The position numbers and the translations under genes are program-made. This document shows positions 1,153 to 38,190 of a DNA stretch of 64,000 nucleotides, in pieces. The notes beneath the pieces are model-generated. The model was not told the origin of the DNA. It did not search any database and worked only from the letters and a program-made list of their open reading frames with translations. The DNA comes from Brachycybe producta. Its lineage: Eukaryota > Arthropoda > Diplopoda > Playtdesmida > Andrognathidae. Every line of letters starts with the position of its first letter. Position 1 is the stretch's first letter. Location: NCBI GenBank assembly GCA_036925085.1, contig JAUPFP010000009.1, positions 4,264,233 through 4,328,232 of the forward strand, read 5' to 3'.

Positions 1153-1631
1153 CTAGCAAGTTGGTTGTTTTGCAGATTGCCTAGGTAATATACAGATTGC
1201 AGACTGATTCCGCAGATTAAACAGTAAAACATTACGACAAATAACGACATCGATCACATTCTTAAACCCACCCAACACGTTTACTTTTTGATCCACTGAT
1301 GACACACTTGTGTCAATATTTTTCAATACACACAGAATTCAATGGGGACCATTATCACAAGTAATGAAAACTCTTGTCATTATAAACAGGGTGGTTGTTT
1401 GCATCGAGCCTCTATCTAATAACATTTCTTTAAAGCCTCAGGGCATCAAAGACAGACCCGCCTGAGGCCCTCAATACAGAGTAGAAAACTAGTTCTCAAC
1501 TTCTCATAAGTTTCCAAACTTGTCTGACAAGTTATTAATTTATTAAAATGTCCTACTTGTTTCTTACTAAGTTACTAAAGCTGCTGTTCTTAAACTTCAG
1601 CAGTCTGAGCTCTTTTTTCCAGTCTTTTGAA
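1153..1631. other. Unassigned spacer
   Basis: No gene, repeat array or recognisable element end was found between the hairpin element and the minisatellite. Confidence 0.45.
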
Positions 1632-3335
1632 GTCAAATGTCAGATGTTTTAATTTGTCCAAAAGATTTTCCAAATGTTTTAATTTGTCCAAAAGATTTTC
1701 CAAATGTTTTAATTTGTCCAAAAAAATTTCCAAATGTTTTAATTTGTCCAAAAGATTTTCCAAATGTTTTAATTTGTCCAAAAAAATTTCCAAATGTTTT
1801 AATTTGTCCAAATGTTTTAATTTGTCCAAAAGATTTTCCAAATGTTTTAATTTGTCCAAAAGATTTTCCAAATGTTTTAATTTGTCCAAAAAAAATTCCA
1901 AATGTTTTAATTTGTCCAAATGTTTTAATTTGTCCAAAAGATTTTCCAAATGTTTTAATTTGTCCAAAAGATTTTCCAAATGTTTTAATTTGTCCAAAAG
2001 ATTTTCCAAATGTTTTAATTTGTCCAAAAAAAATTCCAAATGTTTTAATTTGTCCAAAAGATTTTCCAAATGTTTTAATTTGTCCAAAAGATTTTCCAAA
2101 TGTTTTAATTTGTCCAAAAGATTTTCCAAATGTTTTAATTTGTCCAAAAAAATTTCCAAATGTTTTAATTTGTCCAAAAGATTTTCCAAATGTTTTAATT
2201 TGTCCAAAAAAATTTCCAAATGTTTTAATTTGTCCAAATGTTTTAATTTGTCCAAAAGATTTTCCAAATGTTTTAATTTGTCCAAAAGATTTTCCAAATG
2301 TTTTAATTTGTCCAAAAAAAATTCCAAATGTTTTAATTTGTCCAAATGTTTTAATTTGTCCAAAAGATTTTCCAAATGTTTTAATTTGTCCAAAAGATTT
2401 TCCAAATGTTTTAATTTGTCCAAAAGATTTTCCAAATGTTTTAATTTGTCCAAAAAAAATTCCAAATGTTTTAATTTGTCCAAATGTTTTAATTTGTCCA
2501 AAAGATTTTCCAAATGTTTTAATTTGTCCAAAAGATTTTCCAAATGTTTTAATTTGTCCAAAAAAATTTCCAAATGTTTTAATTTGTCCAAAAGATTTTC
2601 CAAAAGCTTTAATGTGTCCAAAAGATTTTCCAAATGTTTTAATTTGTGCAAAAAAATTTCCAAATGTTTTAATTTGTCCAAAAGATTTTCCAAATGTTTT
2701 AATTTGTGCAAAAAAATTTCCAAATGTTTTAATTTGTCCAAAAGATTTTCCAAATGTTTTAATTTGTCCAAAAGATTTTTCAAAAGTTTTAATTTGTCCA
2801 AAAGATTTTCCAAAAGTTTTAATTTGTCCAAAAGATTTTCCAAATGTTTTAATTTGTCCAAAAAAATTTCCAAATGTTTTAATTTGTCCAAATGTTTTAA
2901 TTTGTCCAAAAGATTTTCCAAATGTTTTAATTTGTCCAAAAGATTTTCCAAATGTTTTAATTTGTCCAAAAGATTTTCCAAATGTTTTAATTTGTCCAAA
3001 AGATTTTCCAAAAGCTTTAATGTGTCCAAAAGATTTTCCAAATGTTTTAATTTGTCCAAAAGATTTTCCAAATGTTTTAATTTGTGCAAAAAAATTTCCA
3101 AATGTTTTAATTTGTCCAAAAGATTTTCCAAATGTTTTAATTTGTCCAAAAGATTTTCCAAAAGTTTTAATTTGTCCAAATGATTTTCCAAATGTTTTAA
3201 TTTGTCCAAAAAAATTTCCAAATGTTTTAATTTGTCCAAAAGATATTCCAAATGTTTTAATTTGTCCAAAAGATTTTCCAAAAGTTTTAATTTGTCCAAA
3301 AGATTTTCCAAATGTTTTAATTTGTCCAAAAACTT
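1632..3335. repeat. 30/18 bp minisatellite with higher-order structure
   Basis: About 1.7 kb built from an 18 bp block (AAATGTTTTAATTTGTCC) and a 12 bp block (AAAAGATTTTCC, or variants AAAAAAATTTCC and AAAAAAAATTCC). The usual unit is 30 bp; occasional units lack the 12 bp block. Every unit length is a multiple of 3, so long frames stay open: two overlapping plus-strand frames (N-V-L-I-C-P-K-D-F-P or K-C-F-N-L-S units) and one minus-strand frame of 597 codons (L-D-K-L-K-H-L-E-N-L units). A 426 bp higher-order repeat (13 x 30 + 2 x 18) is visible: the junction TGTCCAAATG starts at both 1805 and 2231. It lies 266 bp from the transporter exon, in what would be its downstream intron. I treat it as non-coding, because its frames follow from unit length and no start context or splice evidence supports a gene. 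Confidence 0.9.
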
Positions 3336-3600
3336 TTTAACGAAGTTCCAACTTAAATACAAAATCGTACTAAAGTTTCTCATTACCTAAAAAATCTTAA
3401 TGATGTTCCAACTAAAAAAAAACGGTTTTACTGAAGTTCCGAATTACCCACAATACCTTTTACTGAAATTTCCCAAACCAATAAAAAATATCACTTAAAA
3501 AATGTTAAAAACTTATATAAATTTTTTTTGCAAAAACAAAATTATTCTCGTGAAAAATACTTATCTAAAAATATGTTTTAGTAAAAATTTGAATACATAC

Positions 3601-3907
3601 ATTTCTTGTTTTGTTGGTCGTCATGTCGACGATGGCGACCCCTAGATTACACCGGATTCCAAACGATATAAGGAAACCTATGCTAGTCAACACAGCAATT
3701 GTGTACCGCTTGGTCATATTGCAACAACACTCCGGTTGACAAAACAAACGTCCAAAAGGTGTTGGTGATAATGGTGGTCGGTCACTTGGTTTCAGATGAT
3801 CAGTTTGACCTTTGACCGGAGCCATTTCGCCGTATCCATCACCTCCATCATCGCCATCTTCCTCCAATCGAAGGAAACCTTTTTCATCTTCACTTTTTTG
3901 AAATGGG
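3601..3907 (-). CDS. Internal exon of a vesicular glutamate transporter-like SLC17 protein
   Basis: A single 307 bp exon on the minus strand. The acceptor is ...TTTAG at 3909-3908 after a T-rich tract, and the donor is GTATGT at 3600-3595. After one carried-over base it encodes 102 residues and ends in phase 0. Residues 1-60 are an acidic, soluble N-terminal tail ([10 protein letters not shown] near 15-24). Residues 60-67 (CCCNMTKR) precede membrane segment 1 at about 68-84 ([17 protein letters not shown]). The signature [14 protein letters not shown] at 82-95 is characteristic of vesicular glutamate transporters and related SLC17 anion transporters, and N-K-T (98-100) is a possible N-glycosylation site in the first lumenal loop. 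Family members load glutamate into synaptic vesicles using the proton gradient; the function here is inferred from that. The start codon and remaining membrane segments lie in exons not found. Other SLC17 subfamilies are possible, but the NLGVAIVDM match favours the glutamate branch. Confidence 0.88.
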
Positions 3908-3909
3908 CT

Positions 3910-4084
3910 AAATAAATGATTAAAAGAAATGTATACTTAATTATTAAGATTACATTTATTATTTACTGTCAACATAATAACTGCATTTTTTTGTGTGAAA
4001 AAAGTGCATTTTGTACCATTTTTTAAAAAAAATTTCATGTTGTGTGTTTTTTAGTAAAAGACCGAAAGTAGAGAACGATTTTCG
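3910..4084. other. Presumed intron upstream of the transporter exon
   Basis: AT-rich sequence immediately 5' (minus strand) of the exon, including the pyrimidine tract of the acceptor. No second exon is recognisable. Confidence 0.4.
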
Positions 4085-4505
4085 TTCCATCCCGTCCCAT
4101 TTGGGTTTCATCCCATCCCATCAGTCTAATGAGTCCCACCGAGCCCATCAGTTCTACCCATCCCAATAGTCCCACACATACCATCAGTCCCTCAGGTTCC
4201 ATCCACTCCATCAGCTCCACATATCCCATCAATCCCATGGGTTCCACCCATTCCATCAGTCCCCCAGGTTCCATCCATTCCATCTACTCCACATATTCCA
4301 TCTATCCCATCAGTCTCATGGGTTCCACCCATTCCATCAGTCCCCCAGGTTCCATCCATTCCATCTACTCCACATATTCCATCTATCCCATCAGTCCCAT
4401 GGGTTTCACCCATTCCATCAATTCTATGTGTTCCACCCATCTCACCAGTCTCTCAAATCCCACACCATTCCATATCCGTCCCTCAAGTCCATTAGTCCCT
4501 GGCTT
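4085..4505. repeat. CCATC/CCACC-rich minisatellite, 81 bp higher-order unit
   Basis: Degenerate 15 bp units such as ATCCATTCCATC and GGGTTCCACCCATTCC. A larger unit beginning CCCCCAGGTTCC starts at 4261 and again at 4342, a period of 81 bp. Frames through it (Ser/Pro/His or Gly/Asp/Met runs) reflect the repeat. Confidence 0.88.
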
Positions 4506-22707: not shown

Positions 22708-23808
22708 ATGAATTCAACTGTCTTTGCCGTTCTGATGTGTCTTGTGATTGTCGCAATGGTAAGATATATAATTTCACTTATAAATACAACAACAACAATC
22801 ACAACTTAAAAGCCAAGAAAACTATGCAAATTTACATTCAACCAGACCTGTCATAGAGGCTACAATCAAAGGATAAACCTGATTTAATTGCCAGATTGCA
22901 TACATGATTCACTACTACTACTACTAGCCTCTTAATTATTCCTAGGAAATATAACCTCTAAACATGTCTCTTAGCCTGGGTATAATTCATAATCCTTTTT
23001 GAAATATTTTTGAGTAGAAAACTTAAGTCACACCCTAATTTTTAAGACTTGTTAGAGGGTATATTTCTTAATTTTAGCACAAAAACTGAAGTATTGCTAG
23101 CTCTGCCATTAACTAAACTAATAAATTTAATAGAAAAAAAATATTAACATGACACTCGCATTTTACCTTTTTAATTAAAATTAAATTAAATTAAAACAAA
23201 TTTGCGAACTTAATATTAAATTCCTCTCCTACTCTTACAAATGTCAATAATTCCGAGTTCGTTCGCAAACTAATATAACTGGTTCGTTCGCCAGTATACC
23301 GCCAACTAATAACAAATGGTTCCAAACCAAGTAGAAACGGTTCGGTTCTACCCATTCCCACCTCTAGCTACTCTAAATATATATTTTCAATTTTTACTTT
23401 TACACAAATATTTTAAAAATTCACTTTGAAAAATTCTTTCAGGTATTCTGTACTGAAGAAGAAGAAGCACGCCGTGGCGGCTGCCAGGGAGGCAACTGTG
23501 GAGGAGGTGGCGGAGGATGCAAAGGAGGCAACTGTGGAGGAGGATGCAAAGGAGGCAATTGTGGTGGCGGTGGAGGAGGATGCAAAGGAGGCAATTGTGG
23601 TGGTGGTGGCTGCCAGGGAGGCAACTGTGGAGGTGGCGGCGGTGGTGGATGCCAAGGCAAGAACTACGGTGGCTATCCTGACGTCTCAAGTGGTTGCAGT
23701 AAATACTACCAGTGCAAGAATGGTCAAGCATATCCTAAATACTGTCCTCATTCTTACAAATATGATAAATACAAGCACAAATGTATGCAAAATGCTCAGT
23801 GTCAATAA
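22708..23808 (+). CDS. Secreted Gly/Cys-rich protein with a C-terminal chitin-binding (CBM14) domain
   Basis: Two coding exons, 22,708-22,758 and 23,443-23,808, joined in phase 0 (donor GTAAGA, acceptor TTCTTTCAG), give 138 residues. Residues 1-20 (MNSTVFAVLMCLVIVAMVFC) form a signal peptide and the intron falls after codon 17. An acidic-to-dibasic stretch (TEEEEARR, 21-28) follows and may be a short propiece. Residues 31-79 hold five C-x-G-G-N-C motifs (at 31, 43, 52, 64, 74) separated by 3-6 glycines, ending in a G7 run. Residues 87-137 form a CBM14/peritrophin-A domain with six cysteines (87, 102, 108, 118, 131, 137; spacing 14-5-9-12-5) and the aromatic S-K-Y-Y-Q-C core. The domain binds chitin, so an extracellular role in cuticle, shell matrix, gut lining or antimicrobial defence is plausible but inferred. 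TATA box and polyA signal suggest an intact compact gene. Start choice: the first ATG after the 5'UTR acceptor, directly followed by the hydrophobic core. Confidence 0.9.
22759..23442 (+). other. Intron 2 of the Gly/Cys-rich gene
   Basis: A 684 bp intron with consensus ends. Its 3' part (23,250-23,366) contains repeated GGTTCGTTCG/ACGGTTCGGTT words ending CCCACCTCTA, which resembles a worn hAT-type terminus. No exon is visible inside. Confidence 0.75.
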
Positions 23809-26767: not shown

Positions 26768-27326
26768 GATTTCAATTACATTTGCAAAATTTTTAAAATT
26801 GCTTTTTTTTTTCTACTCCCAACTATTTAATAAAGAAGAATTTCCTTGATAGAAAAATTTACGCCCTTAAGCTTCCTTAAGGTCTATTGATTTTCCACTC
26901 ATAGACATCATTATACAGTTGCAAAAGCACCACCAAAGGGCCAAATATCAAAATCAATTCCCCCTCCCACCCCCTCACCCACAAACCATTCAAATATGAA
27001 ATTATTCAAAGTTTATATTTTATAAACGCGGAAATAATTTCATAAAATATATTCCAAAATTGGAATTATATTTCAACACAAAAAATATTTTAGGGCCTGC
27101 TTCATACGGCTGCTTCACACTAAAGTGGCCGCTTTAAACAGACCATTCATTACATAGAGGCAGCAGGTCACACAAGAAACCACACCACCGGTTTTTTTTT
27201 TTGAGGGTTCGAGTTGTTTTTTTTTTCACTTTTTAAAGACGAAATTCCAATAGAAAAAACTTAGTAGTTTTGAACTCTCTGAGCAGGTTTCTAATGTAGA
27301 AAAATTTCTGTTCAAGAGTATTTAAG
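26768..27326. other. Unassigned spacer
   Basis: No gene recognised. Confidence 0.4.
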
Positions 27327-28056
27327 CTTAGACTATTACTCTACTGGACTGGCAACTCCCTATCTTCTACATGTTAAAGCGTTAAATGCATGTTCATAGG
27401 CAAAATAAATAAGGCAAAAGTGACGCCAGCTCCGCCTGGTGGCATTATTTTAAAAGAAAATCGTTAGCTAGATTGTTTTTTTTTTTGCAAAGGGGAAGAC
27501 ATTGGGGGTGAATCATGTACTGTATGGCAAGTTATTTTAGTTTTTTCACGTTTTACTGGATTTTCCAATTTTAATTCTATTCTAGGAATCCAGTAAAATG
27601 CGGATAAAAAAGTAAAATGAATTTCCATATGTGATATTCTGCTGTGAATTTGTGTAAATCTTAGTGAATCTCGTACATGATTTTTTTTTAATGTCGGCCC
27701 AGTTGTCATTTCGTCTCCTAAGCAAAAAATGGTTGGAAAACGTTGTTGTTACGGTGTTTGTGACTCGCATTTTCCTGATAATAGACCACAACCAAAACAG
27801 GTAACACTTTACAGACACTTTTTGACATAACACAGCTGTAGTTCTTCATCGGCCATACTTTTTATAATAATATATATAAAAAAATCCACCGTATATAACT
27901 ACAAAATGAACTCGTCCAAAGTTTGACTTTTGATATTCATGTTCATATACCATAGTCCCGCTAGAGGCGCCACTTCAAAAACGACGTCACGACGATTCAA
28001 AACTATCCAACAGAAAATTTCGGGAGTTGCCAGTCCAGTAGAGTAATAGTCTAAGG
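27327..28056 (+). mobile_element. Non-autonomous DNA transposon carrying a THAP exon
   Basis: Perfect 34 bp terminal inverted repeats: 27,327-27,360 (begins CTTAGACTATTACTCTACTG) and 28,022-28,055. TTTAAG is present at 27,321-27,326 on the left and 28,057-28,062 on the right and may be a target duplication, offset by one base on the right. Inside is an ATG exon with a THAP-type start (27,729-27,800) and a good donor, but the ~220 bp that follow to the right end hold no further exon. Best explained as an internal-deletion derivative of a P-element-like or other THAP transposon. Confidence 0.78.
27729..27800 (+). pseudogene. First exon of a THAP-domain transposase, remainder deleted
   Basis: ATG to donor CAG|GTAACA, 24 codons ending in phase 0. 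The peptide begins MVGKRCCYGVCDS and continues HFPDNRPQPKQ. The C-C-x3-C pattern right after a short basic start is the usual opening of a THAP C2CH zinc finger, a DNA-binding module of P-element transposases and derived host genes. The distal Cys/His pair and the AVPTF-type box, normally encoded downstream, are absent between here and the right terminal repeat. The frame is intact over its length. A host THAP gene is less likely because the exon sits midway between perfect transposon ends. Confidence 0.72.
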
Positions 28057-28371
28057 TTTAAGAATATATCTATGTTTTTGAACCCTGTTTTGAGGGTTTC
28101 CTTCTTAAGTTGTCTCAACTATGTTACTGACTGTTTTATTATAATTCCCCCATTTTGAATGTTTCTAAAAAAAAATTTATTTAATGTTAATAAGGCCTAA
28201 AATTAAAACAAAAACTTAGCACTGGAAGACTTTAACATAAGAACCTTCCTCAGAGGGTTCAAGTACCAAAGTTTCCTTTTTGAAGCTAAAATTCCAGAAG
28301 AAAAGGTAGCACTTGAACACTTTGAACAGGCTTCTAATGTAAGAAGAAAAAACCTGTTCAAGGTTATATAT

Positions 28372-28893
28372 AGGGTTCGGATTTTCATGCAATATCAAGC
28401 AAAATGTTTCTCAATCTGCGGCCCAAGAGTCAATTGTGAAGTAACAACTCGGCCGTTTAGATCAACCCAACAATTATGATTTTTTTTCAATGAAAAATAC
28501 TGGTTAGAGGCTAAAAATTTCTAGTAACCTAGATAGTAATCAGACATCTAGCTTCTAACCAACCTTGATTAGAAAAAGCATAATTGCAGTTCTACTGATG
28601 ATAATTACAGGCAATTAGAAATCGGGACGAACAGAAGTTGGCTCCGCCCTTTTTACGACAAACGCAACTTCTATTTGGTTGGTTATGTAGTCTGACGTCA
28701 CATGCTCCGCCCCTTTTCAACGTCGAACCACACAACAAACCAATTAGAAGTTGCCGGTCGTCATAAAAAGGGCGGAGCCAACTTCTGTTCATCCCGTTTT
28801 CTAATTACCGGTATGATAATTAGTTGATTATTTTCAACATTGGGCCCCACAGATTGAGAAACATTTGCTTGATTTAGCATGAAAATCCGAACC
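28372..28893. mobile_element. Family C hairpin element interrupted by family B
   Basis: Left end AGGGTTCGGATTTTCATGCA and right end GCATGAAAATCCGAACC are inverted. Inner landmarks are TTTCTCAATCTGCGGCCCAA and its complement, and GGTTAGAGGCT/AGCTTCTAACC. The right arm is broken at 28,608 by a family B element. Confidence 0.85.
28608..28812. mobile_element. Family B hairpin element, exact 10 bp duplication
   Basis: Ends CAGGCAATTAGAAATCGGGA and (inverted) TCCCGTTTTCTAATTACCGG. Inner arms GAAGTTGGCTCCGCCCTTTT and CGGCAACTTCTAATTGG pair with their complements. ATGATAATTA occurs at 28,598-28,607 and 28,813-28,822. Confidence 0.92.
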
Positions 28894-37870: not shown

Positions 37871-38190
37871 TGTTCAGATTTTGATGCAATATCAACGGAA
37901 ATGTTTCTCAATATGTGGCCCACAAGTGCCAATTCTGAAGTAACAATCTCGTTTAGATAAAAAAACTGTTCTTTCTAATTAACAAAAATGATTAGAGACT
38001 AGAACTCTAGTTGACAACTGATAGTAACCAGACATCTAGCCTCTCTAACCAGCATTTTCTGATTAGAAAAAAAAAAGCATAATTGCAGTTTGCTCTATGA
38101 TGATGATGATTGATTCCTTTGCAATTGGCACTTGGGCCACAAATTGAGAAACAACATTGTGGTTGATATATTGCATCAAAATCCGAGCCC
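37871..38190. mobile_element. Family C hairpin element
   Basis: TGTTCAGATTTTGATGCAAT at left and ATTGCATCAAAATCCGAGCC at right. Inner inverted words are TTTCTCAATATGTGGCCCA and GGGCCACAAATTGAGAAAC. A (GAT)n run lies at its right inner arm. Confidence 0.83.

Follow-up and report, generated by a model that had tools for sequence, protein, structure and literature searches.

The window, a 64,000 nt stretch of Brachycybe producta DNA, contains a 729 bp element at positions 27327–28055, bounded by terminal inverted repeats (TIRs) of 34 bp and flanked on either side by a heptamer that forms the target-site duplication (TSD). The coordinates of the element and its parts are given in Table 1. The initial annotation had placed the element at 27327..28056, with perfect 34 bp terminal repeats. 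The repeats were confirmed, as was the start of the element; however, base 28056 opens the right copy of the TSD and does not belong to the element. No second copy was revealed when the element was compared with the window by BLAST, and a search of 26800–28600 against Rfam gave no match at the gathering score.

Several other features are present within the window. A long minisatellite-like tandem repeat at 1590–3386 is open in several frames on both strands. An exon-like frame at 3565–3936 (−) resembles vesicular glutamate transporters (PDB 8sbe, E 1.1e-11), with no Pfam match at E 0.01, and another at 23377–23808 (+) combines a glycine-rich repeat with a chitin-binding peritrophin-A domain (E 1.6e-8). 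The single tRNA call, a tRNA-Asp with anticodon atc at 37984–38058 (−), is possibly a pseudogene or SINE-derived.

Table 1. Parts of the miniature element and its flanks, in window coordinates
Feature	Position	Strand	Remarks
Left TSD copy, ATTTAAG, 7 bp	27320..27326	+	6/7 identical to right copy
Left TIR, 34 bp, perfect	27327..27360	+	564 genome matches at ≤3 mismatches; 0 for the reversed control
5′ subterminal region	27361..27728	+	Common to the ~875 bp copies and the longer C16 copy L091
THAP exon relic, 33 aa frame	27729..27830	+	Approximately the first 28 parental codons, then unrelated residues and a stop
CAG/GTAACA string, proposed splice donor	27798..27806	+	Codons Q-V-T in the intact sister frame
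21 bp filler at the internal-deletion junction	27815..27835	+	Replaces 175 bp of L069 (584–758); from alignment
3′ subterminal region of the parental element	27836..28021	+	91.8 % identical to L069
Right TIR, 34 bp, perfect	28022..28055	−	Inverted match to left TIR
Right TSD copy, GTTTAAG	28056..28062	+	6/7 identical to left copy

The genome searched comprises 295,300,729 bases in 442 contigs. The TIR matches within 3 mismatches divide into 274 + 290, the reversed pattern giving 0 + 0, and would correspond to approximately 280 elements if each has two ends. Twenty-four distinct family copies with both ends present, mostly picked as good matches rather than at random, were examined for TSDs. 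The flanking heptamers were identical in 19 copies, agreed at 6 of 7 positions in three (the window copy among them), and agreed at 4 and 1 of 7 positions in one copy each; a recognizable TSD is missing in two of the 24. Mismatched pairings of flanks, used as a control, reached at least 6/7 in 38 of 552 cases. The 19 perfect duplications follow the pattern GTTNAAC, with T at position 2 in all 19, A at position 6 in 18, and G at position 1 and C at position 7 in 12 each.

The internal junction that distinguishes the window copy and its like, hereafter the 730 bp type, occurs at 106 genome places (55 + 51, ≤3 mismatches), while uninterrupted THAP exon DNA occurs at 26 (14 + 12, ≤3 mismatches); the reversed controls gave 0 in both cases. 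A family with a 729 bp member that encodes no transposase, has TIRs and a TSD, shares a junction at 106 places and shows identities of 95–100 % in the long matches listed from a whole-element search (40 of 1557 first-look candidates scored) has the makeup of MITEs.

Sister copies of 870–879 bp, the ~875 bp type, have the same ends as the window copy and carry an 88 aa THAP frame that begins at the same ATG. In the 873 bp copy L069 this frame (MVGKRCCYSVCDSRFPDNRPQPKQVTFYKLP...CGLHF...) matches PF05485 with an E-value of 7.7e-9 and, by phmmer, two chains of THAP domain-containing protein 1 (2ko0, E 5.6e-4; 2jtg, E 0.0033). Positions 2–488 of the window element are 94.3 % identical to L069, and positions 9–488 are 88.7 % identical to L091, a longer copy on contig C16. 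Further in, the 175 bp of L069 at 584–758 correspond to 21 bp in the window copy, and half of the zinc ligands are gone. The family exon sequence of the window copy ends 8 bases past GTAACA. In all 11 aligned rows of the 730 bp type (the window copy and ten others) TTTACAG is followed by a shared filler and then by the 3′ subterminal region.

The ATG frame of the window copy, MVGKRCCYGVCDS..., accordingly differs from its 88 aa counterpart in lacking W43, C64 and H67, and the first cysteine pair alone remains; the C2CH ligands and the conserved W thus do not stand together in one frame. Neither the complete 33 aa frame nor the 24 aa peptide upstream of the proposed donor letters matched Pfam at E-values up to 10. 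We infer that the frame is a fossil without THAP function.

In the ~875 bp type, at least 87 of the 88 residues are read without a stop at eleven of the places listed, and the same holds for the C16 copy; two further places of this type, C71 and C1:19053392, are frameshifted. Divergence from the respective consensus is 0.2–0.7 % in ten ~875 bp copies versus 0.7–3.7 % in eleven copies of the 730 bp type, and the ~875 bp type looks the youngest of the family. Two copies in the ~875 bp set, L083 and L084, share flanks and count as one insertion within a larger duplication. Intact frames in copies of younger appearance raise the possibility that the ~875 bp type acts in the manner of the KP element of Drosophila melanogaster, whose protein, the product of a small non-autonomous P element, is described as a known repressor (PMC7776569; PMC12393704). 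Under such an arrangement the 88 aa THAP-only protein would occupy transposase sites within the ends and repress or shape mobilization, and the 730 bp type would be a further-deleted passenger. However, among ten ~875 bp copies there are 5 distinct nonsynonymous codon changes and a single synonymous one; this count excludes L077, in which an in-frame repeat is altered, as well as L076 and L094, which are frameshifted. By this measure the THAP frame shows no sign of being under selection within the type, and at such an age an intact frame is expected even without selection. Additionally, the copies compared are best matches rather than a random sample, a protein of 88 aa is far shorter than the 207 aa KP protein, and the THAP-less junction is the commoner one at 106 places versus 26. 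A KP-like role is for these reasons improbable. Between L069 and L091 the dN/dS ratio is approximately 0.35 on 19 differences, a value that may reflect the parental lineage only. A broader form of the idea is slightly more doubtful again: that the ~875 bp subfamily unites the ends with its own end-binding protein, as a KP-like regulator or a self-immunizing decoy, and would represent the most recent spread of a family whose transposase lineage has all but vanished from the assembly, with the 730 bp type as passenger.

The initial annotation had read the ATG frame as a surviving THAP exon with a clean CAG/GTAACA donor, and had proposed that this exon might be spliced from 27,800 to a host acceptor to create a new THAP fusion. 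The letters are indeed present, and GTAAYA stands at the donor position in all eleven aligned 730 bp type rows. However, in L069, L091 and L092 a single reading frame continues through the GTAACA point. Exon DNA runs through the site at the 26 places noted above and, in L069 and L091, leads, with the frame kept, to a complete THAP domain. In the window copy the 24 residues encoded upstream of the site hold only one half of the C2CH zinc site and draw no Pfam match. In L091 the exon extends by eye to GAAGAG/GTAAAT, 270 nt after the ATG and 198 nt beyond the proposed donor; this is likely the exon end, and it falls in sequence that is absent from the window copy.

The sole sequence that leans towards the donor reading is L087 (C4:3619394-3621400). 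Around its positions 564–611 it carries 34 extra bases exactly at the donor site, which creates a 48 nt stretch beginning GTAACA and ending ACAG. Because the L087 frame runs for no more than a few to approximately 18 codons before a stop whether or not this stretch is removed, and because L069, L091 and L092 read through, the extra bases are probably an insertion with repeated GGTAACAC. Nor was a host exon recognized nearby among the 4 of 30 listed window frames of at least 110 aa that were searched, the nearest recognized exon-like piece being the chitin-binding one at 23377–23808. CAG/GTAACA may serve as a cryptic donor. The frame was not confirmed as a THAP exon with a true donor, though, and the splicing of this exon into a host gene, for which the sequence offers no support, is very unlikely.

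Internal variation within the family goes beyond the two types. A marker located just 3′ of the exon, inside the 3′ subterminal region, was found at 261 places (133 + 128, ≤2 mismatches; control 0); set against 106 + 26, this number indicates that approximately half of the family is internally different or more diverged at these mismatch limits. One of eight further marker places with no THAP match nearby, L101 (C1:20643738), is missing a different segment of approximately 97 bp that includes the ATG. At another place without a nearby THAP match, the variant L102, the 1,014 bp read match the family in their 3′ part only. In the alignment the exon of L080 and of L087 ends a few codons earlier, and several of eight further relatives contain frameshifts or stops. 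Together these variants look like a set of internal deletions. The 1728 bp copy L078 (C3:12331361-12333288) was considered as a less-deleted parent and rejected, as it consists of a window-type copy with an insert of approximately 1 kb flanked by ATAT, in which the longest stop-to-stop frame is 71 aa. Sequence related to this insert is also present in the P-type transposase loci L059–L062, L067 and L089.

A protein search with the 88 aa frame led to a frame at C16:2921187 that is identical at 79 of 88 residues. In this copy, L091, similarity to the family begins close to the left end and extends across the exon (88.9 % over 660 columns); L091 has an imperfect left TIR, and its THAP frame matches PF05485 with E 4.7e-8. 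Its continuation, L099, contains further frames, one of 228 aa. At E-values up to 1e-5, relatives of the 228 aa frame were found elsewhere in one region of C68 and two of C1, and the frame is approximately 49–50 % identical to part of L090 on C1. L090 encodes a TNP-like RNase H_N domain (PF21787, E 3.2e-20) and a GTP-binding insertion domain (GBD; PF21788, E 9.6e-17), upstream of which lies a THAP stretch that is 67 % identical over residues 24–87 and contains one stop. Within 5,751 bp the C16 copy has neither a match to RNase H nor a right end, and so looks like a relic. L090, although it combines THAP, the middle exon and RNase H/GBD, was rejected as the parent since no family ends were found in its 4,901 bp (best 19/34).

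The association of TIRs with transposase sequence was compared for 100 of the 564 TIR places, those listed individually and all exact matches. By eye, among these 100 places and the 93 PF21787 matches listed, PF21787 lies within 10 kb of a TIR at C9:495145 and C2:522736 only. At C2:522736 the TIR belongs to an 870 bp copy, L070, which has its own perfect TSD and is located entirely on one side of the PF21787 match. At the C9 locus, L089 (C9:494845-501500), a P-type RNase H hit follows one family TIR at a distance of 1.7 kb, yet the similarity to the family stops after approximately 70 bp (301–368) and the transposase sits between a different inverted repeat (620–661 / 4385–4426). Neither locus was retained as an autonomous element of the family. 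The initial annotation had suggested a search for a full-length autonomous relative with the 34 bp ends. In L091 a THAP-encoding relative that shares the 5′ end does exist, but a complete autonomous copy uniting the family ends with RNase H was not found in the comparison over 100 of 564 TIR places.

Additional P-type sequence was encountered in the course of these searches. Positions 620–4426 of L089 constitute another P-type element, with its own 42 nt inverted repeat (88 %), beside the truncated family end, and near-perfect hairpins occur at 3630–3719, 3724–3767 and 3864–3924 of the same locus. In L100 (C68:645001-648500), positions 89–122 resemble the left end of the family in diverged form (8 of 34 positions mismatched); this end follows GTTAAAC between exons of a THAP/P-type locus and represents a related family of ends. 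On contig C1 (22.2 Mb in an assembly of 295 Mb), counting by eye placed 38 of the 93 TNP-like RNase H_N matches listed in the interval from approximately 6.1 to 18.8 Mb; some of them are pieces of one gene. On C7, four THAP matches with open frames of 88–96 aa lie approximately 1 kb apart on one strand (C7:2962745-2966279 and C7:2960596-2960805) and form a tandem THAP array, with a P-type RNase H piece approximately 2 kb beyond on the same strand.

On sequence grounds the family is very probably a member of the P superfamily, to which it is tied by the 228 aa exon that the C16 copy shares with the RNase H/GBD-encoding L090. An N-terminal THAP domain is present in the longer copies L069 and L091, both with the family 5′ end. 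RNase H with a GTP-binding insertion is present in the related L090 and was seen in no copy bearing the family ends. The perfect 34 bp TIRs compare with the approximately 30 bp TIRs of the superfamily, a feature that is not universal within it, and the 7 bp TSD is one of the two lengths, 7 or 8 bp, expected there; the classic P element has an 8 bp TSD, which is a point against the assignment. Membership of another THAP-bearing superfamily such as Kolobok, whose transposases also contain THAP domains, is most unlikely, as Kolobok duplicates TTAA and not 7 bp, and as the C16 exon that follows THAP recurs at a locus with TNP-like RNase H_N and GBD domains.

Among known elements, Galileo of Drosophila, also of the P superfamily, is similar in its THAP-type transposase, its many non-autonomous copies and its 7 bp palindromic TSDs of the form GT...AC, but its TSD consensus is GTANTAC (PMC4168063) as opposed to GTTNAAC, and its TIRs are described as unusually long and foldback-like (PMC3688188) as opposed to 34 bp. 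The P-element MITEs of Anopheles gambiae are likewise miniature, retain 5′ and 3′ parts of P and exist in numerous full-length copies, with TIRs of 27–31 bp in P subfamilies; unlike the window family, with its 7 bp TSD and THAP exon remnant, they are reported to have 8 bp TSDs and a centre that bears no relation to P (PMC1562414). In D. melanogaster, KP and other P elements with internal deletions also keep both ends, and some encode a transposase remnant, the ~875 bp type being the most similar to them; the KP protein, however, has 207 aa and has been studied as a repressor (PMC7776569), whereas the window copy is without a THAP domain. The titles and abstracts surveyed on P elements, MITEs, THAP and 7 bp duplications do not describe the window family. 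It is filed as new, although its kind, P-derived miniature elements, is already known.

The window feature is thus very probably a non-autonomous, miniature member of the P superfamily, an internal-deletion derivative of a longer THAP-transposase parent, and was probably amplified in trans. That the element is a miniature derived by internal deletion from a THAP/P-type transposon had been proposed in the initial annotation, and is borne out by same-ended sister copies with the full THAP exon and by a C16 copy that continues into transposase-like exons. The longer parent would have had the same ends and a transposase with a THAP domain in its first exon. Internal deletions would have retained the ends and the 5′ and 3′ subterminal DNA, with nearly the whole THAP exon kept in the ~875 bp derivative; a further replacement in this exon, of 175 bp by the 21 bp filler, would have given rise to the 730 bp type. 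We infer this order of deletions. Interrupted gap repair is a usual route to internal deletions in P elements, and the replacement probably arose by gap repair of this kind after excision, as suggested by the resemblance of the filler ACACTTTTTGAC... to the adjacent AACACTTTACAG. The 730 bp type was then probably amplified by transposase supplied in trans, by analogy with P copies carrying internal deletions, which may be mobilized by transposase from full-length insertions (PMC12393704), and insertion at the window locus would have generated the 7 bp GTTNAAC-like duplication.

The splice donor and the THAP exon that were inferred from one copy dissolve on alignment with sister copies. At the level of the genome, internal deletions of a P-type element outnumber their source, with 564 TIR matches versus four places that hold the middle transposase exon of the lineage. 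A family so rich in deletions resembles the dead end that has been proposed for P invasions dominated by non-autonomous copies (PMC12393704). A THAP-only mini-element would offer a simple system in which to ask whether a stand-alone DNA-binding remnant affects mobilization.
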